This document shows, in pieces, positions 50,989 through 62,122 of a stretch of 64,000 nucleotides of DNA; position 1 is the stretch's first letter, and each line of letters begins with the position of its first letter. The notes below the pieces were generated by a model. That model was not told the origin of the DNA. It searched no databases and saw nothing but the letters and a program-made list of their open reading frames with translations. Origin of the DNA: a virus; the IMG/VR virus record IMGVR_UViG_3300044801_000208, positions 1 through 64,000 of that record; one strand, 5' to 3'. The translations under genes and the position numbers were made by a program.

Positions 50989-51063
50989 TGGTAGCCCTGA
51001 GCGGTATCGATCCGCCTTCCGCGCCTTGAGAGGGTGCTGTCCTAGCCAGTAGACGACAGGGCC
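50989..51063 (-). tRNA. tRNA-Glu (CTC)
   Basis: Acceptor GGCCCTG pairs with CAGGGCT before ACCA; the anticodon loop CTCTCAA gives anticodon CTC. CCA is encoded. One A-C mismatch in the anticodon stem. First of the minus-strand RNA cluster by coordinate. Confidence 0.85.
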
Positions 51064-51186
51064 ACTTTCTGCTGGTACAGCTCGCGCCCGCCCAGGCGCG
51101 GTTGCTTGCGCCAGCGGAGCGGCGGGCGGGGAACCCACTCCGGCGCTGAAAGTCGCACTCTGGCCTCTGAGTTAACAGCGCGAACT

Positions 51187-51262
51187 TGGTAGGGTATAGG
51201 AGAATCGAACTCCTCATCATCTGATTGAAAGTCAGAGGTCCAAACCGATAGACGGATACCCC
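51187..51262 (-). tRNA. tRNA-Glu (TTC)
   Basis: Acceptor GGGGTAT/ATACCCT, anticodon stem TCTGA/TCAGA with loop CTTTCAA, canonical T loop TTCGATT, encoded CCA. A well-formed cloverleaf. Confidence 0.92.
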
Positions 51263-51295
51263 ATCTCTAAATTTACTCCCGCGTGCTCCTAAATT

Positions 51296-51371
51296 TGGTG
51301 GACCTAGTCGGGATCGAACCGACGACCTCTTCCATGCCATGGAAGCGCGCTCCCAGCTGCGCTATAGGCCC
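51296..51371 (-). tRNA. tRNA-Ala (GGC)
   Basis: Acceptor GGGCCTA/TAGGTCC, anticodon stem CTTCC/GGAAG with loop ATGGCAT, T loop TTCGATC, encoded ACCA. Confidence 0.9.
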
Positions 51372-51385
51372 AGCGAACGGCTTTC

Positions 51386-51453
51386 GGCAGGTACAGGATT
51401 CGAACCCGCGTCTCCGGCTGCCCGGAATCCTAAGCCACTAGACGAACCCCTAC
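51386..51453 (-). tRNA. Degenerate tRNA
   Basis: The T arm (GCGGG TTCGAAT CCTGT) and a Glu-like D arm (TCGTCTAGTGGCTTAGGA) are recognisable. However, the anticodon arm has only a 4-nt loop (TCCGG GCAG CCGGA) and the acceptor ends do not pair well; CCA is missing. Probably a decayed tRNA. Confidence 0.4.
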
Positions 51454-51487
51454 TCGCCGTTCTTTGCGTCGTGCACGGACGCAATCT

Positions 51488-51563
51488 TGGTAGCGCACGA
51501 GGGACTCGAACCCTCATTTCACACGCTGAGAACGTGGTTGCCTAGCCGTTAGCAGAGTGCGCC
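51488..51563 (-). tRNA. tRNA-Glu (CTC), second copy
   Basis: Acceptor GGCGCAC/GTGCGCT, anticodon stem CCACG/CGTGT with loop TTCTCAG, T arm GAGGG TTCGAGT CCCTC, encoded ACCA. Different in sequence from the copy at 50989. Confidence 0.85.
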
Positions 51564-51569
51564 GAAACT

Positions 51570-51645
51570 TGGTGGACCTAAGGGGGCTCGAACCCCTGAC
51601 CTCATCGTTGCGAACGATGCGCTCTCCCAACTGAGCTACAGGCCC
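51570..51645 (-). tRNA. tRNA-Ala (CGC)
   Basis: Acceptor GGGCCTG/TAGGTCC, anticodon stem CATCG/CGATG with loop TTCGCAA, T loop TTCGAGC, encoded ACCA. Confidence 0.9.
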
Positions 51646-51655
51646 AACTTCAAAC

Positions 51656-51732
51656 TGGAGCGGCTGGCGGGATTTGAACCCGCGATCTCTTCCATGGCAA
51701 GGAAGCATTCTACCAGGCTGAACTACAACCGC
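51656..51732 (-). tRNA. tRNA-Gly (GCC)
   Basis: Acceptor GCGGTTG/CAGCCGC, anticodon stem CTTCC/GGAAG with loop TTGCCAT, T arm GCGGG TTCAAAT CCCGC, encoded TCCA. Confidence 0.92.
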
Positions 51733-51746
51733 GTATTTCCAATCTT

Positions 51747-51815
51747 TGGAGCGAGAGACCGGACTCGAACCGGCAGTCTGAGCACACTGTCGTTGTAATC
51801 CATTCCACACCGCTC
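51747..51815 (-). tRNA. Degenerate tRNA
   Basis: The T arm (CCGG TTCGAGT CCGG) and 3' end CGCTCCA are intact, but the 5' half does not form a normal D or anticodon arm and the acceptor pairs only in part. Likely a decayed or rearranged tRNA. Confidence 0.35.
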
Positions 51816-51875
51816 ATAGTCAAAATTTTTGCTGCGTTTACGTCCCAGTCGGTCGATGGCTTTTACCCCATCGCG

Positions 51876-51990
51876 TCAGTCGGGGCATTCGCCGAGGCTG
51901 ACGGACATTCCGTGGTCGTCGAATCTCGTAGCCGAAGCTACGGCGTTTTTCTACCCACTTAAGGGAGTCCACGCGGATGCCACGCAGCAA
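51876..51990 (-). CDS. Possible small gene between tRNAs, frameshifted
   Basis: From TTG 51990 (TTAGAGG upstream) the frame reads LLRGIRVDSLKWVEK. The natural continuation one frame over is NAVASATRFDDHGMSVSLGE to a TGA at 51876. Removing one A from the AAAAA run at about 51949-51953 joins them. Function unknown. The rest of 51816-52001 shows no other gene. Confidence 0.35.
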
Positions 51991-52001
51991 ACCTCTAAAC
52001 T

Positions 52002-52076
52002 TGGAGCGGGTTACCGAAATCGAATCGGTCTCTGTGGCTTGGAGGGCCACGGCACCGCCAGTTATACCTAACCCGC
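52002..52076 (-). tRNA. tRNA-Gly (TCC)
   Basis: Acceptor GCGGGTT/AACCCGC, anticodon stem GTGGC/GCCAC with loop CCTCCAA, T arm CCGA TTCGATT TCGG, encoded TCCA. Position 33 is C instead of the near-universal T. The 3' end of the HNH gene runs 9 bp into it. Confidence 0.85.
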
Positions 52077-52562
52077 TAAACGATAAAACTTTCCACACTG
52101 ACTACTTTCTCGCGTTTGTTTATTGGTAGCGATCAGCCCCTTGTTCCTGTCCTCCGCTGTCTTTACTGCGTGACAGTTCGCACAACGTACGTCACATTTG
52201 GCTATTTCGTCCAAAACTCGCTGCCGACCTTTAGTCCAACCTTGGGCCAAATTGAACTTCTTTTCCTTTGGATCGCGATGGTCGAAGTGCAGGGCTGCTG
52301 CGTATTCCTTGTACCCACAATCCTTGCACCCCAGTTCCAGCTTTACAGAGTCAATCCATTTTCTGCGAGCGGCATACCGGTAATCTCTTGCACGACGGTT
52401 GCAGATAGTTTTTGTTTCTTTACGCTCTTCCGGCGTTTTTACCTGCGTTGAATCTTTGCAGACCCGTGTACAGAAAAATATTTTGTGCTTACACAGCTTG
52501 TACCGCGACGGGTATATGTCAAAGTCATTTTTGCAAACCCAACATTGAACCGTTATCATCAC
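52068..52562 (-). CDS. HNH endonuclease in the tRNA cluster
   Basis: Start ATG 52562 or 52559 after GGGGGAG; 164 aa. N-terminal zinc pair (CWVCKNDF...CTRVC), basic middle, then CKDCGYKEYAAALHFDHRDP and CDVRCANCHAVKT, an HNH core. It lies between tRNA-Gly and the RNase P RNA gene and is much richer in AT than the RNA genes. A mobile insertion in the cluster. Confidence 0.85.
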   Translation of the reverse strand: MMITVQCWVCKNDFDIYPSRYKLCKHKIFFCTRVCKDSTQVKTPEERKETKTICNRRARDYRYAARRKWIDSVKLELGCKDCGYKEYAAALHFDHRDPKEKKFNLAQGWTKGRQRVLDEIAKCDVRCANCHAVKTAEDRNKGLIATNKQTRESSQCGKFYRLAG

Positions 52563-52606
52563 TATTTGCTCCCCCTACTTTGAATACTGTAGAAGGAGCA
52601 AATAGT
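52563..52606. repeat. 12-bp inverted repeat between HNH and RNase P RNA genes
   Basis: ACTATTTGCTCC and its perfect complement GGAGCAAATAGT are 20 bp apart, with a smaller CTAC/GTAG nested inside. It can act as a bidirectional terminator (TTAATTT follows on the + strand) or as an insertion-site mark. The HNH ribosome binding site lies in one arm. Confidence 0.75.
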
Positions 52607-52608
52607 TA

Positions 52609-52970
52609 ATTTACGCGACCTATAAGCGGGGTTCTGTAAGCACCGAAGTGCCCGACAGCCATTCGTCTAATCCACCTATTACTAGGCGGCTCAAGCCCCT
52701 AACCCGCAGATTGATAACGAACCGAGCAAGCTCTCTCTGCCTATTTAGGGTTGCTTCACGCAAGGTTTGCCATGCAACGACTGTTACCAGCCGCCCGGTG
52801 GTCTCTTAAACCGCCTTTTCACCCTTACCGTCTTGCGACGGCGGTATATTCTCTGTGGCACTGTCTATCACGGTTACCCGTGTCCGGGTGTTACCCGGTG
52901 CGCTGCTCTATGTAGCCCCGACTTTCCTCCCCCGTAAAATCACAGCGGCGACTGTCCGGTCAACGTAAAA
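52609..52970 (-). ncRNA. rnpB: RNase P RNA (bacterial type A)
   Basis: All universal landmarks are present in order on the minus strand. P1 is TTTACG-TT-GACC pairing with GGTC-G-CGTAAA. GACAG of P2 pairs with CTGTC near 52655. CR-I GAGGAAAGTCGGGGCT lies at 52914-52929. TGCATGGCAAACC (J11/12) is followed by GTGAAGCAACCCTAAATAGG. A GCACTTCGGTGC hairpin precedes CR-V ACAGAACCCCGCTTATAGG (52619-52637). RNase P cleaves 5' leaders from pre-tRNAs. It sits inside the phage tRNA cluster; no rnpA was seen. Confidence 0.96.
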
Positions 52971-52972
52971 TT

Positions 52973-53049
52973 TGGAGGTCCGGGGGAGAATCGAACTCCC
53001 GCATTTTCACGTTTGCAGCGTGACGCCTTACCGTCTTGGCTACCGAACC
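52973..53049 (-). tRNA. tRNA-Cys (GCA)
   Basis: Acceptor GGTTCGG/CCGGACC, anticodon stem CACG/CGTG with loop CTGCAAA, T arm GGGAG TTCGATT CTCCC, encoded TCCA. Its 3' end is 3 nt from the 5' end of the RNase P RNA. Confidence 0.92.
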
Positions 53050-53056
53050 AAACTAA

Positions 53057-53162
53057 TTGGATCAAGTGCTCTACTACTGAGCTACACCCGCCATCTGTCG
53101 ATAGCCGAAGCGTGACAGTGGGCGGGAGGGCGGGTACGAGACCGCCGACCTCCTGATCCAAA
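53057..53162 (-). tRNA. tRNA with permuted halves (Trp-like)
   Basis: On the minus strand the 3' half comes first (GGATCAGGAGGTC, T arm around GGCGG...CCGCC, acceptor CTCCCGC-CCA; 53119-53162). A 26-nt hairpin CTGTC...GACAG (53093-53118) follows, then the 5' half (GCGGGTG-TA, D arm GCTC AGTAGTA GAGC, then CTTGATCCAA; 53057-53092). GCGGGTG pairs with CTCCCGC (one mismatch), and CTTGA with TCAGG as anticodon stem. CCA in the joined loop suggests Trp. Confidence 0.55.
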
Positions 53163-53164
53163 CT

Positions 53165-53238
53165 TGGCGGGGCGTACGGGAGTCGAACCCGTGTGTCTCG
53201 GTAGACAGCCGAGTAAATTGCCGTCATTCTCACGCCCC
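53165..53238 (-). tRNA. tRNA-Asp (GTC)
   Basis: Acceptor GGGGCGT/ACGCCCC, anticodon stem CTCGG/CCGAG with loop CTGTCTA, T arm ACGGG TTCGACT CCCGT, encoded GCCA. The D arm is atypical. Confidence 0.85.
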
Positions 53239-53311
53239 GGACGCCGAGACGGGAATCGAACCCGTGAATAAACGTTTTGCAGACGTTCGCCTTACCACTT
53301 GGCTACTCAGC
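53239..53311 (-). tRNA. tRNA-Cys (GCA), second copy, 3' end atypical
   Basis: Anticodon stem AACGT/ACGTT with loop CTGCAAA, T arm ACGGG TTCGATT CCCGT, acceptor GCTGAGT with TCTCGGC (partly wobble). The 3' end reads GTCC instead of NCCA and abuts tRNA-Asp without a spacer. Confidence 0.75.
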
Positions 53312-53322
53312 TTACACAAAAA

Positions 53323-53483
53323 TTATGCCGCGATGATTAAGGGGCTGATCCCCATCCCGGCGCTCCGAAGAGCCTTCCGGTATCTATCGCCGTCGCGGAC
53401 GACACACTCTGAGCGCTGTATCCACGTCTTAGGTGGGTGTTCTTCACAGACCGCTAAGTCTGGTACTGGACAGCGCTCAAACT
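53323..53483 (-). other. Coding-like frame lacking a start codon
   Basis: The frame reads FERCPVPDLAVCEEHPPKTW, IQRSECVVRDGDRYRKALRS, then GMGISPLIIAA to a TAA at 53323, with a plausible zinc site. It runs back into tRNA-Ala with no ATG, GTG or TTG. It may be a gene remnant cut off by cluster rearrangement, or use a rare start. Confidence 0.35.
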
Positions 53484-53558
53484 TGGTGGACACAGGGAGA
53501 TTCGAACTCCATAGTTCTCATTGCAAGTGAGACGCATTCCCAATTATGCTACTGGCCC
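53484..53558 (-). tRNA. tRNA-Ala (TGC)
   Basis: Anticodon stem TCTCA/TGAGA with loop CTTGCAA, T arm GGAG TTCGAAT CTCC, encoded ACCA. The acceptor (GGGCCAG with TGTGTCC) has mismatches, so function is less certain. Confidence 0.75.
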
Positions 53559-53570
53559 ACATTCAAAACT

Positions 53571-53646
53571 TGGTGCGCTGGAAGGGACTCGAACCCCCGA
53601 TGAGTGTCTTGTAAGGGCACCGCTTTAGCCGCTAAGCTACCCGCGC
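53571..53646 (-). tRNA. tRNA-Val (TAC)
   Basis: Acceptor GCGCGGG/CCAGCGC (one mismatch), anticodon stem GTGCC/GACAC with loop CTTACAA, T loop TTCGAGT, encoded ACCA. The 3' end of the endonuclease VII gene overlaps it by 15 bp. Confidence 0.82.
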
Positions 53647-57181: not shown

Positions 57182-60100
57182 CTACATTTCGCACGCGCCT
57201 GCGGAACAGGCAAGCTCCTTGGCGGCCGTGGTCATGTCCTCTTTTTCAAAGTCGGGGAGGCGGGCCCAGTCTATGGACGGCTCCCTCCCCCTGAGGCTTA
57301 AATACTCGGCCTGGGTGATTTCCGTGTAGGGTGCCTGGCGGTATATCCCGTTGTCGTGGGGCTGGAAGCTGATCCCGCCGATCAGGTCGAAGTGCTTGAA
57401 GCACCAGGCCAGCACGTCGGTCCACTCGGCCTCGCGGACGTAGATCGTGCAGTTGTGAGTCAAGATGTTTCCCTCTAGCACAAAATGCCCTTCCTCTGGT
57501 TCCTCGACGCAAAACACAGGCTCTATTTTGTCTGTCTTGCGTACCGCGACAATCTTCCAGAATTTGTCATGCTTAGCCGGTGAGAACCGGGACCGTTTGT
57601 CCTCCAGCACAAAGAAGTTTTCATCAAGCGTGCCTTTATGTATCCCGACGACATAGCCCGTGTGACCGCCAAAATTCTTGGACCAGCGCTCCCCGATCTG
57701 GGTAGATACAGCCAGCCCAGCTTTTGGGGCTGCTTCCTGGAGCCAAAGTAAGCTGTCACGAACACTGGACGCCAATGTACATTGCCCGTCCTGCGCTATG
57801 TGCCCGTCTGCGGCAAACCAGCCGCTGATAAACCCCCGCAGGTATTCTGGACTGCTTGTTGTGATGCCGGGCAGGGTCTTCCAGTTGTTTGGGAGCCCAT
57901 AAAATCTGACTTGCCCCACATCTTCCCTTGGGGTCGGCTTATATCCGGCTTGCTCAAACAGCACCGACAGCTTGCGGCTATCACAGCCGTTCGGGTCGTT
58001 GCAGAGATATATTTGGCAGGCTTTCGGCTGGCTGGTGCCGTCAGCGGAGGCCGCCACGCGGGCAGCCCCGTCCCCGTACGTGATCCCGTGGAGGACGGCT
58101 TGCTTGTCAAGGCTAACCCGGAAAGCGGGATTAACGGTGACAAACTGCCGCTTGCCGACAAAGCCGTGAATCTTGTCCGTAGGAACCAGCTTTTCCTTGT
58201 ACCCAGCCCAGCGCCCGAAAGCGTAAGTCAACGGCCAGAGATGCGAAGCTGTAGTTTCTATCGTATGTTTTGCCCCACATCTCTCCAACTCAACCTCCCA
58301 AATGGGCTGTTTACCGAAACGACGCACAGTGGCATCCTTCCATACGCCTCGTTTGCCGAGCACGCGCACCTTCTCCCCGTCTGAGAATTGGGAGAAGCTT
58401 GCCAGCCCCCGGTCTGTGATAAACCGCGTTTTTCCAGAAAAGCAACTCGGGTTGTGCTCCGTCCAGTGCATCTTGTACGTCTTGTATGTCTCCAGCTGCT
58501 CCATGGCCGTGCGGTCGTTGCGGCACACGCTCGTGTCCGGCGACTCCAGGGCGAAGAAGAACACGTCGGAGTCGTTCGGCTTGTTGAGCTCCGGCTCGGA
58601 CAGCCAGCCGATCGCCTTCATGAACTCGTTGACCGGGCTCTTGCGGTCCTCCTGCGTGCCGCGCATGATCCAGCGGGCGTAGCGGGCGTGGATGCCGGGC
58701 GAGCAGTTGACCAGCTGGGACACGGTGCCCGAGGGCTTGATGCAGGTGATGGCGGCGGGGACGGGGATGCCCAGCTTCCCGGCCCACTCCGTGGCGACCT
58801 CGATGGTGTACTCGCGCAGCTCGTCCAGGAACTTCGCCAGCTCGGGGCCGTTCGTGGACATCATGACGTTGTCCATGATGCCCGTGAGGGAGACGCCCAG
58901 CAGGCGCTCCTCCTCCGCGTTCTTCTGCCACTCCTTGCGGAGGTAGCGGAACTCGGTCAGCGTGGACTGGAGGCAGCCGATGATCGTCGCGATGCGGACC
59001 TTGCGCCTGATGGTCGCCTTGGTGTCGTGCGGCCTGATGACGCACTCGGAGAGGTTACAAAATCCTTGAGGACGGAGATTTATCTCACCGCAGTTATGAA
59101 CATACAACCCGTTGGCATCAAAGGCATTGATGCCGGGAATCGAGCAGTCGAATACTTCTTTATCGCCGATGTAGGTAACTGTTTCAACTTTAGAGAAAAA
59201 CCGCTCACGGTTGATTTCCCGTTGGTAGTTCGTCAACGCTGACATCAATTTCTCTTGCTTAGATTCATCCTCAAAGCCTACTACGCTAGCAAATTCTACG
59301 AGATTGTCATTAGCTATAATAAGTTCATGTTGTGCTTGACAAAAATATTCCTTCGAACCCCCACTGCCATCAGGCAACAAACGCAAACCCGCTTCTCGAC
59401 GGTCTCTATAAATTGCAGAAACTACCCCCAGCCTAGCCAGCATCCGTTGGGCGACTTGCAACCCCGGCAAATCAATTGAAGAAAGGCGAACACTCACTCC
59501 CTTAGCTTGCGTTCCCTGTACAGAACCATCAGCGTCAAACCAACCCCGTAAAAATCCTCGATGAAAGTCGCTGCTAGTGGCCTCGATGTTTGGGGTCAGT
59601 TGTTTTGCTTGCGTAAAGCCGTACTCAGACGCTAAGGTACCCAGTTTTACAGAACCTACTCTGGTTCGATTGCACTGTGGTTGATCATTCCCTTTAAGAT
59701 CAGAACGTGCCCCTACGGCTGCATAAACGCGAGCTATAGCGACCTCAACCAGCTCAGAGCGGCTGTCGCCCCAATAATCAAGGTTGGCTTTACCGCTAGA
59801 CTCTATATTGCCATCCCCTTTCAAATTACCTAGAAGCCAACCTTCGTCAAAGGTCCCAACCCCCTTGAACTGGTAATTACGGTGGTTATTCAAAACCACC
59901 CGATCCCCCACCTGTAGATCACTTACACGCTTCCATGAAGTACGCTGAGTCTTTTGGCTTAGGTAATCCATAACCAAAACAAGGTGGTCACCTGTTGCCT
60001 CCAACAAATAGCCGTGAGTAGTTACCAATTGGTACACGGGTTTTACGCCTGTGAAGAAAAATCCGTCCTCAGTGGATTCATGCTCTTCGCCGTCCACCAC

Positions 60101-62122
60101 GGCGGTAAACTTTTTACCTAATAAATTACCGACTTGATTCGGTCCGTTCGCAGTTGTAATCCACACAGTTTTAGTTAAGCACGGGTTGGTGCCGAACTCG
60201 ATGCCCTCCCACTTGCGCCTGCCCGTGCGCTTCGCGGAGTTGATGGCCGCGACGCGGTTGAAGATGCCGCGCTCGCCGGACTTGGACTCGATGAGGGTGA
60301 GGAACTCCTTGATGAAAATCTCCGGCTCGGGCTTCTCCGTGTAGGCCACGGAGTTGTTGGCCAGCCTGCGCCAGGGCGTGGCGCTCGGCTTGTACCACTC
60401 GCCCGTCTTCGCGCCGCGCATGCGGTCGTCGGACAGGTTGGACAGCGACAGCATCGCGCTGCGGCGCACGCCGCCCACGACGACCACGTCGCCGACCATG
60501 CACATGAGGTCGTGGCACTCCAGCGAGCTGAGCCTGCGCCCGGCCGCCTCCTTGAAGAGGCCGACGGTGAACTTGAAGAGGCGCTCCAAGGGCTCGGGGC
60601 CGGAGGCGCGGCCGCCCATGGTCTTGAGAACGGAGCCCGCTGGCCTGACGGCGCTGAGGTCCCAGGTCGGGACGGAGCCGCTGTAGAGGAGGCTGATCAG
60701 CTGGCGGAACGCGTTGGACCAGCCGATCTTGGAATCCCTTACTTTGATGCAGGTCTCGACGGGATAGAACTTCTCGGCGATCGTGGGGAGGAGGTTGGTG
60801 TACTGGCGCTCGACGGAGAAGCCCACGCCCGTGCCGCACATGCTGAGGTACATCGCCTCGTCGAACGCCCTCGGGTCGTTGACCGCGATGTAGGAGCAGT
60901 TTCCGGTGACTATCCCCCCGGCGAGCACAAATGTGCTGGTGTCGGGTACCTCAGCGCAAAAGACCTCCTTTTGGTCTCCCGTCTCCTCGACGGCGTCTAT
61001 CGTGAAATAAGACACCAATGGTTTGAAGTTTTCGCGTTTCCGGCTGCACAGGAAATCCTCCTCCACCATGGAGCTCCGGCTGAATCGCACCACGTATGAG
61101 TCTTTTTTGCGTTTTCCGTAGTTTGTTTCCGCCTTCTGCTTATGAAACCCCTGGACGACGCATCCGAGTCTTTCGGAGTTCAGCAGCAGCCACTCCAGCC
61201 CCTCGGCGGCGGTGCAAAGAGACACTGAGCCGCTCCCTCTGTTCACCGAACCGTCGGCGGCCATCCATCCGCGAATAAACCCCAGTAGGTACGACTCTGT
61301 TTCGGACATCGGGGGGAGTTCTTTCAGCGCGTGGGTTGCCGCAAAATCGTCGTACAGCATAACTACCGGATCGCCGCCGAACGACGGTGGGTAGCACACG
61401 GGGTACCCCTCGAAATGCACCAGCAGCTCCCGGCTATCCCCGCAGAGGCGGATGTGCCAGCCCTTTACGCGTTTGCACGATTTGGTCGCGGTGCCGTCTC
61501 CGTATATGAGCCCGTGCCTCACCCCGAGCGGGTAGTCGTCGTCAATTTCCGGTTTTAGGGCGCGCGTGAACGGCACCCTGTCTTTTCGCTGAAGGCCGCT
61601 TGTGGGGACGACTCTGCCGTCCGTCAGCAGCCAGCGGTGGTTGGCTGAGCATTCGACTGTTTTTTCCGTGTTTGAGTTGAGTTTCAGCTTGACGTTAAAC
61701 GTGGGCTGTTTTCCGTAACCGTGAATCGCGGCCTCCGCCCACGCCCCGTTGGAGTTAACCACGGTGACGGATTCGCCCGCGACGGCTTGTATCTCCACGT
61801 TCCCGTGCTCGCGGGTGACGATTCTCGTCTCCCCCACGACAGGGTTGTACCCGGCGGCGTTGTCCTTCTCCAGCGCGGGGCCCGCCGTCATCATCGCCCG
61901 CATGGAGGGCATGACCTCCATGTGGTAGATCGCCTTCTCAAGCTCGGAGGCCGTCGCCTCGCGGTCGGCCTTGGGGATGCGCGGCGAAAAGAAGGACACG
62001 TAACGGCTTACCGTCTCGTCCCAGTGCTCCCTCCTGCCCTTTTCTTCCACCCAGCGTGCGTATCTCGACTTGTGTATGAAGGCGGAGTAGGTAGACATCT
62101 CGAACGGAGATTTGGACACCAT
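57182..62122 (-). CDS. nrdJ: Adenosylcobalamin-dependent ribonucleotide reductase with three inteins
   Basis: ATG 62122 overlaps the GIY-YIG stop (TAATG); 1646 aa precursor, about 637 aa after splicing. Extein landmarks of class II RNR: MPSMRAMMTAGPALEKDN, CGTGVGFSVE, VVGGVRRSAM, NPCGEINLRPQGFCNLSEC, KPSGTVSQLVNCSPGIHAR and a C-terminal cysteine pair (CSAGACEM) for re-reduction. It makes deoxyribonucleotides using vitamin B12; thioredoxin at 25.6 kb is a plausible electron donor. The inteins sit at the conserved junctions YN/CSY, NP/CGE and PS/CTI. Confidence 0.95.
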   Translation of the reverse strand: MVSKSPFEMSTYSAFIHKSRYARWVEEKGRREHWDETVSRYVSFFSPRIPKADREATASELEKAIYHMEVMPSMRAMMTAGPALEKDNAAGYNPVVGETRIVTREHGNVEIQAVAGESVTVVNSNGAWAEAAIHGYGKQPTFNVKLKLNSNTEKTVECSANHRWLLTDGRVVPTSGLQRKDRVPFTRALKPEIDDDYPLGVRHGLIYGDGTATKSCKRVKGWHIRLCGDSRELLVHFEGYPVCYPPSFGGDPVVMLYDDFAATHALKELPPMSETESYLLGFIRGWMAADGSVNRGSGSVSLCTAAEGLEWLLLNSERLGCVVQGFHKQKAETNYGKRKKDSYVVRFSRSSMVEEDFLCSRKRENFKPLVSYFTIDAVEETGDQKEVFCAEVPDTSTFVLAGGIVTGNCSYIAVNDPRAFDEAMYLSMCGTGVGFSVERQYTNLLPTIAEKFYPVETCIKVRDSKIGWSNAFRQLISLLYSGSVPTWDLSAVRPAGSVLKTMGGRASGPEPLERLFKFTVGLFKEAAGRRLSSLECHDLMCMVGDVVVVGGVRRSAMLSLSNLSDDRMRGAKTGEWYKPSATPWRRLANNSVAYTEKPEPEIFIKEFLTLIESKSGERGIFNRVAAINSAKRTGRRKWEGIEFGTNPCLTKTVWITTANGPNQVGNLLGKKFTAVVDGEEHESTEDGFFFTGVKPVYQLVTTHGYLLEATGDHLVLVMDYLSQKTQRTSWKRVSDLQVGDRVVLNNHRNYQFKGVGTFDEGWLLGNLKGDGNIESSGKANLDYWGDSRSELVEVAIARVYAAVGARSDLKGNDQPQCNRTRVGSVKLGTLASEYGFTQAKQLTPNIEATSSDFHRGFLRGWFDADGSVQGTQAKGVSVRLSSIDLPGLQVAQRMLARLGVVSAIYRDRREAGLRLLPDGSGGSKEYFCQAQHELIIANDNLVEFASVVGFEDESKQEKLMSALTNYQREINRERFFSKVETVTYIGDKEVFDCSIPGINAFDANGLYVHNCGEINLRPQGFCNLSECVIRPHDTKATIRRKVRIATIIGCLQSTLTEFRYLRKEWQKNAEEERLLGVSLTGIMDNVMMSTNGPELAKFLDELREYTIEVATEWAGKLGIPVPAAITCIKPSGTVSQLVNCSPGIHARYARWIMRGTQEDRKSPVNEFMKAIGWLSEPELNKPNDSDVFFFALESPDTSVCRNDRTAMEQLETYKTYKMHWTEHNPSCFSGKTRFITDRGLASFSQFSDGEKVRVLGKRGVWKDATVRRFGKQPIWEVELERCGAKHTIETTASHLWPLTYAFGRWAGYKEKLVPTDKIHGFVGKRQFVTVNPAFRVSLDKQAVLHGITYGDGAARVAASADGTSQPKACQIYLCNDPNGCDSRKLSVLFEQAGYKPTPREDVGQVRFYGLPNNWKTLPGITTSSPEYLRGFISGWFAADGHIAQDGQCTLASSVRDSLLWLQEAAPKAGLAVSTQIGERWSKNFGGHTGYVVGIHKGTLDENFFVLEDKRSRFSPAKHDKFWKIVAVRKTDKIEPVFCVEEPEEGHFVLEGNILTHNCTIYVREAEWTDVLAWCFKHFDLIGGISFQPHDNGIYRQAPYTEITQAEYLSLRGREPSIDWARLPDFEKEDMTTAAKELACSAGACEM
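57452..58444 (-). other. Intein 3 of the reductase
   Basis: 331 aa from CFSGKTRFITDRG to NILTHN, followed by Cys +1. It has Cys1, but also the W (SHLWPLT), C (PVFCVEE) and T (ILTHN) positions of class 3 inteins. LAGLIDADG motifs: GITYGDGA and YLRGFISGWFAADGH. Confidence 0.9.
59093..60181 (-). other. Intein 2 of the reductase
   Basis: 363 aa, Cys1 (CLTKTVWITT) to VHN then Cys +1: class 1 junctions. Block B TGDH, LAGLIDADG motifs WLLGNLKGDGN and FLRGWFDADGS. The stretch is clearly AT-richer than the exteins and the other inteins, so it was probably gained most recently. Confidence 0.92.
60899..61843 (-). other. Intein 1 of the reductase (class 3-like, Pro at position 1)
   Basis: 315 aa from PVVGETRIV to GIVTGN, followed by Cys +1. 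The first residue is Pro, not Cys/Ser. Trp in the block B region (NHRWLL), Cys in block F (EVFCAEV) and Thr in block G (IVTGN) match the W-C-T triad of class 3 inteins. LAGLIDADG motifs: GLIYGDGT and LLGFIRGWMAADGS. Confidence 0.85.

Follow-up and report, generated by a model that had tools for sequence, protein, structure and literature searches.

Few ribozymes are nearly universal; RNase P RNA is one of them, and its gene is considered to belong to cells. The host gene, rnpB, is normally present once on the chromosome, and the enzyme acts in trans, with multiple turnover, on the 5′ leader of tRNAs. Why would a virus carry this RNA within an array of its own tRNA genes? The question is raised by a stretch of viral DNA of 64,000 nucleotides (hereafter the window; positions 1 to 64,000 of IMG/VR record IMGVR_UViG_3300044801_000208), in which a sequence-only reading had described a complete bacterial type A RNase P RNA inside a tRNA cluster. 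The parent record is linear, spans 97,808 bases and contains a single RNase P RNA.

A search of the whole window against Rfam with cmscan, the check that had been proposed for this reading, returned one RNase P RNA, which matched RF00010 along the entire model (positions 1-367 of 367) at 268.9 bits, the gathering cut-off being 100 bits (Table 1). The boundaries given originally, 52,609-52,970, lie within 3 nt of this match, and the description of the RNA as complete is borne out by the full model length and by an intact P4 helix. In P4, AAG-U-CGGGG pairs with CCCCG-CUU in eight of eight pairs, the bulged U is kept, and relative to the Rfam consensus there is one compensated exchange of C-G to G-C. 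When pairs were projected from the Rfam structure, 90 of the 97 nested pairs were standard. CR-I reads GAGGAAAGUCGGGGCUACAUAG and CR-V reads ACAGAACCCCGCUUA. The specificity domain (S-domain), with CR-II and CR-III, is present in full and contains the motifs ACAGA and GGUAAGGGUGAAA; a further motif, AGACGAAUG, was also found. The GGGU at 52702-52705 is presumably the site that pairs with the 3′ RCCA of pre-tRNA, as would be expected of a bacterial RNase P. Judged by its sequence, the window RNA is, as a molecule, a canonical representative of a ribozyme family already known.

Table 1. Position of the RNase P RNA, its catalytic landmarks and its neighbours in the window.
Feature	Position	Strand	Support
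Type A RNase P RNA (rnpB-like), complete catalytic and specificity domains	52608..52967	(-)	RF00010, 268.9 bits, E=1.2e-86
P4 5′ strand AAGUCGGGG, with bulged U, part of CR-I	52916..52924	(-)	8/8 P4 pairs
P4 3′ strand CCCCGCUU, part of CR-V	52624..52631	(-)	P4 pairing, window and 11-RNA alignment
GGGU in P15 loop	52702..52705	(-)	alignment to RF00010
tRNA array, 12 tRNAs: Val, Ala, Cys, Asp, Cys, (RNase P RNA), Gly, Gly, Ala, Glu, Ala, Glu, Glu	50989..53646	(-)	ARAGORN
tRNA-Cys(GCA), directly upstream of RNase P RNA	52973..53049	(-)	ARAGORN; Rfam 62.5 bits
5-nt spacer AATTT, tRNA-Cys CCA to RNase P RNA	52968..52972	(-)	
164-aa ORF between RNase P RNA and tRNA-Gly(UCC)	52068..52562	(-)	CxxC...HFDH...CxNCH pattern
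tRNA-Gly(UCC), conserved downstream neighbour of RNase P RNA	52002..52076	(-)	ARAGORN

All 12 tRNAs called by ARAGORN share the strand of the RNase P RNA, as had been claimed. The gap to tRNA-Cys had been put at 3 nt; measured to the CCA end it is 5 nt, and the spacer resembles the trailers (AGTTT/AATTT) that follow other tRNAs of the array. The 164-aa ORF on the downstream side is HNH-endonuclease-like by eye and gave no Pfam match. At the upstream edge of the array lies an ORF of the Endonuclease VII family (PF02945; 53632-54048 (-), E=9.5e-19). An unclassified conserved RNA of ~88 nt (53320-53407 (-)), situated between tRNA-Ala(UGC) and tRNA-Cys/Asp, was also found in the related records G001, G003 and G010 (G and L numbers are our own labels) and has no Rfam match at E<=5. 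A covarying helix in this RNA pairs the 5′ hairpin loop with the 3′ end; across four sequences it is 100% paired, and three of its five pairs have changed on both sides. A permuted tRNA-like element (53050-53164 (-)) runs from a T-arm through a hairpin-capped acceptor stem to a D-arm. An extended anticodon stem of 10 bp, which lacks the anticodon loop, closes the element, and the whole folds at -46.4 kcal/mol. A scan of the relatives with ARAGORN on rotated sequences returned no permuted tRNAs, and the same scan missed the window element.

The window record encodes tail-fibre, UvsX, clamp-loader, DnaB-like helicase, sigma-factor and ribonucleotide reductase (RNR) proteins. Relatives were sought independently of the RNA, through the SbcC/Rad50-like protein of the window phage. 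Fifteen records, the window counted, carry an SbcC-like protein, and RF00010 exceeded its cut-off in 12 of these (window, G001, G003, G009, G010, G012, G023, G234, G235, G236, G238 and G239), with G012 and G023 carrying identical RNase P RNAs. No RF00010 match was found in the remaining three of the 15, G002, G004 and G237, which are fragments of 29, 76 and 39 kb, respectively. Four of the positive records (G009, G010, G012 and G023) were first met in the RNA pattern scan described below and then recovered by the protein alone. G009 and G010 are contigs of 456 and 463 kb. The capsid, portal and tail genes by which a tailed huge phage (Caudoviricetes) is recognised are found in G010, which has a major head protein (phrog_2522, E=9.4e-43), a portal protein (phrog_16240, E=1.1e-22), a minor head protein and tail fibres; among these, the window record has tail-fibre matches only. 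Because its SbcC-linked relatives reach 456 and 463 kb, and because one of them has head and portal genes, the window record probably represents part of the genome of a huge tailed phage.

One ORF (L003:14618-16882 (+)) had a PHROG match to terminase. This assignment was rejected, as insert-free orthologues look like SbcC/Rad50-type ATPases; the terminase call arises because the match falls on an intein with Hint and homing-endonuclease domains. The intein of the SbcC-like ATPase occupies residues 34-387 and is missing from most relatives. Inteins with homing endonuclease domains were observed in the ribonucleotide reductase (window 57182-62122 (-)) and in the SbcC-like ATPase, where the insertion site is Walker A; a helicase ORF (L002:13532-17173 (+)) contains a stretch similar to the intein of the ATPase.

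Throughout the SbcC-linked phages the RNase P RNA sits amid tRNAs for GNN codons (Val, Ala, Asp, Glu and Gly) together with tRNA-Cys, and its position between tRNA-Cys/Asp and tRNA-Gly(UCC) is conserved. tRNA-Gly(UCC) starts a few nt past the RNase P RNA in every member examined but two: in the window and in G003 the pair is separated by an ORF, and other family members have no insert at this place. On the upstream side, the window, G001, G003, G010, G012/G023 and G013 have a tRNA-Cys whose CCA is encoded, followed by a short spacer rich in T. G010 has 68 tRNAs that cover all 20 amino acids, and G009 has 61, with no Trp called. Across four of these phages CCA is encoded in 168 of 172 tRNAs, and U is the commonest base at position -1. 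tRNAs with a CUA anticodon (called as Pyl by ARAGORN), which are possible amber suppressors, were observed three times in G010 (L235) and twice in G009 (L249). In L296, L297 and L298 a TCTTTGAAAATTT-like leader, resembling a boxA antitermination element by eye, lies just before the RNase P RNA; this leader occurs in family members without an adjacent tRNA-Cys. G003 has a long ORF-like insert between tRNA-Asp and tRNA-Cys (L009 1965-2884 (-)), the start of which, YTVYKTVNLVNGKFYIGVHKTD, is GIY-YIG-like by eye.

Eleven full-length phage RNAs, that of the window and ten from other viral contigs, were aligned with an Rfam-derived structure. Pairing was found in 85.9% of cells, compared with 69.3% after shuffling and 35-42% after sliding. 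Both sides had changed in 68 of the 105 pairs, and the covariation score was 0.451 versus 0.183. P4 was paired in 100% of cells, and one of its pairs is G-C in four of the 11 RNAs and C-G in the remaining seven. Within the family of the window the C-domain is well conserved, while the S-domain, full in the window, is reduced in other members; relatives with a reduced S-domain still exceed the RF00010 cut-off. P4 and CR-I are altered in several relatives. As read from the sequences, G235, G236 and G239, and G003 with a variant, lack a base in both strands of the outer P4, and in the same group U replaces the C of the others (GGAAGUUCGGG with UCCCGGCUA). Because the S-domain is reduced, and P4 and CR-I are changed in several members, activity may be non-uniform across the relatives.

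RnpA (PF00825) was absent from the window record and from 45 other viral records (46 in total, many of them partial); a control search recovered RnpA from 10 of 14 known genomes. In none of these 46 records is RnpA encoded alongside the RNA, as it would be for a holoenzyme specified by one genome. The earlier view that the protein subunit would have to come from the host agrees with this absence, which makes supply by the host the simplest reading. Because the viral records are incomplete, an RnpA gene may lie elsewhere in the phage; an unrecognised protein partner is also possible.

If the phages have no RnpA gene, any protein bound by their RNA would have to be that of the host, and the RNA could then be mainly a decoy that sequesters host RnpA (or pre-tRNAs) and blocks host tRNA maturation, for which catalysis would be unnecessary. 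The reduced specificity domain of the relatives is in keeping with such a role. However, a sponge would not need a covarying P4 core or, in P15, a GGU for pairing with the CCA of tRNAs, nor would it need to be placed in an array whose tRNAs themselves require 5′ cleavage. It would also harm the phage's own 60-odd tRNAs, and we consider sequestration unlikely.

A pattern scan of viral contigs for GAGGAAAGTCNGGGC returned at least 119 stretches, and among the matches listed at least five tRNAs lie within ~3 kb at 26 loci. All 35 records examined from the scan have an RF00010 match, one per record, and 29 of these are above the cut-off. A phage record of 146,658 bases (G024, L201) has an RNase P RNA. 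Some scan records without tRNA arrays may be host DNA, and host-like IMG/VR matches of this kind were excluded from the count of phage genes. In a collection of annotated phages, an Acinetobacter match proved to be host rnpB beside a prophage integrase and was set aside, and further matches were to unannotated fecal contigs; queries with two other phage RNase P RNA copies gave no better match.

In a catalytic-domain tree that was otherwise weakly resolved, a single phage-only clade was rejected (p-AU 0.004), and RNase P RNA thus seems, from these sequences, to have entered phages more than once. A clade that unites the window RNA with its family was not rejected in the same weakly resolved tree (p-AU 0.446). 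A donor was sought by a pattern scan of bacterial genomes and in a 189-genome phylum sample; since the best bacterial matches are partial, with about 71-76% identity over 100-185 nt, no donor is named. Capture that was probably repeated, as the lack of an exclusive phage clade indicates, is also what would be seen if host rnpB had been picked up together with tRNA genes and persisted as a recognisable passenger, with no function for the phage. Passengers decay, however, whereas the 11 diverse phage copies show pervasive compensatory change. In addition, the copies of the family hold their position in the array while being mostly 56-79% identical, and several relatives are missing bases from P4 in a matched manner, one on each side, as read from the sequences. 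Passive carriage is therefore very improbable. It is scarcely credible that the contig comes from a host, or that host rnpB was joined to it during assembly: such artefacts exist, some "phage" database matches being host rnpB next to a prophage, but this reading is contradicted by the same RNA-tRNA order in independent contigs from many samples, among them the 463-kb G010, which encodes head, portal and tail proteins. Genes for UvsX, a clamp loader, RNR and tail fibres are also present in the window record.

The original interpretation is supported in the main: this is a phage-encoded type A RNase P RNA in a tRNA cluster, to which conservation in related phages can be added. A role in the tRNA maturation of the phage is the best fit, and activity is proposed on comparative grounds. 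We consider it likely that the RNA is an active RNase P ribozyme that uses host RnpA to mature phage tRNAs. Several observations argue for this: the full-length RF00010 match, with covariation in 11 copies and an intact, covarying P4; the presence of the RNA in 12 of 15 SbcC-linked records at a conserved position, with 68 and 61 tRNAs in G010 and G009; tRNAs that nearly all encode CCA, most with U at -1; the head and portal proteins of G010; and the absence of RnpA from the 46 viral records, many of them partial. The RNase P RNA would be transcribed as an element of the tRNA polycistron, fold as a type A RNase P RNA and recruit host RnpA, and the resulting ribozyme would cut the 5′ leaders of the CCA-ending phage pre-tRNAs. 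From the position of the genes, processing of the neighbouring tRNAs would also define both ends of the ribozyme: its 3′ end when the tRNA that follows (tRNA-Gly(UCC) in the relatives) is cut at its 5′ terminus, and its 5′ end when the trailer of tRNA-Cys is trimmed. The phage might thereby keep a very large set of its own tRNAs maturing if host rnpB is limiting, degraded or ill-matched. A more ambitious version, which we put forward tentatively and think doubtful, is that some huge phages bring a near-complete tRNA supply of their own, with tRNAs for all 20 amino acids and an RNase P RNA that takes the place of host rnpB on RnpA. The RNase P of the infected cell would in this way be reprogrammed towards phage pre-tRNAs, and remodelling of the ribozyme by lineage (reduced S-domain, shortened P4) would suit it to phage substrates.

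What appears to be new here is that phages keep an RNase P RNA gene among their tRNAs, that its structure bears marks of selection, and that related phages have derived forms of it. The open-access literature searched, which included few subscription journals and no bioRxiv, contained no account of such a phage gene. The repeated occurrence of phage RNase P RNA, with synteny and compensatory evolution, would add a catalytic RNA enzyme to the viral gene repertoire. It also bears on the many tRNAs of huge phages, as it implies selection on the making of tRNAs, beyond codons alone. The reduced S-domain and shortened P4 of the derived relatives offer naturally occurring structural variants for the study of RNase P.

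Compared with known systems, the window RNA shares with bacterial type A RNase P RNA (RF00010) a full-length match, CR-I to CR-V, the bulged U of P4 and the GGU of the P15 loop. It differs in lying within the tRNA polycistron of a tailed phage, with no rnpA found in the record, and in having phage relatives with a reduced specificity domain, some with a shortened P4. Large tRNA arrays are shared with the huge phages described in the main text of Al-Shayeb et al. 2020 (PMC7162821), which have up to 67 tRNAs, tRNA synthetases and tRNA-modification enzymes; that main text makes no mention of RNase P, rnpB or ribozymes. The closest idea in the literature searched concerns theta (HDV-like) ribozymes, which adjoin gut-phage tRNAs and have been proposed to aid tRNA processing (PMC10879173). 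These are likewise phage-borne ribozymes tied to phage tRNAs, but they self-cleave in cis and were proposed to act on the 3′ trailer, whereas RNase P acts in trans on the 5′ leader. Polycistronic phage pre-tRNAs that require RNase P are also known from T4 (reviewed in PMC11143913); T4 uses the RNase P RNA of its host, whereas the window phage brings its own.
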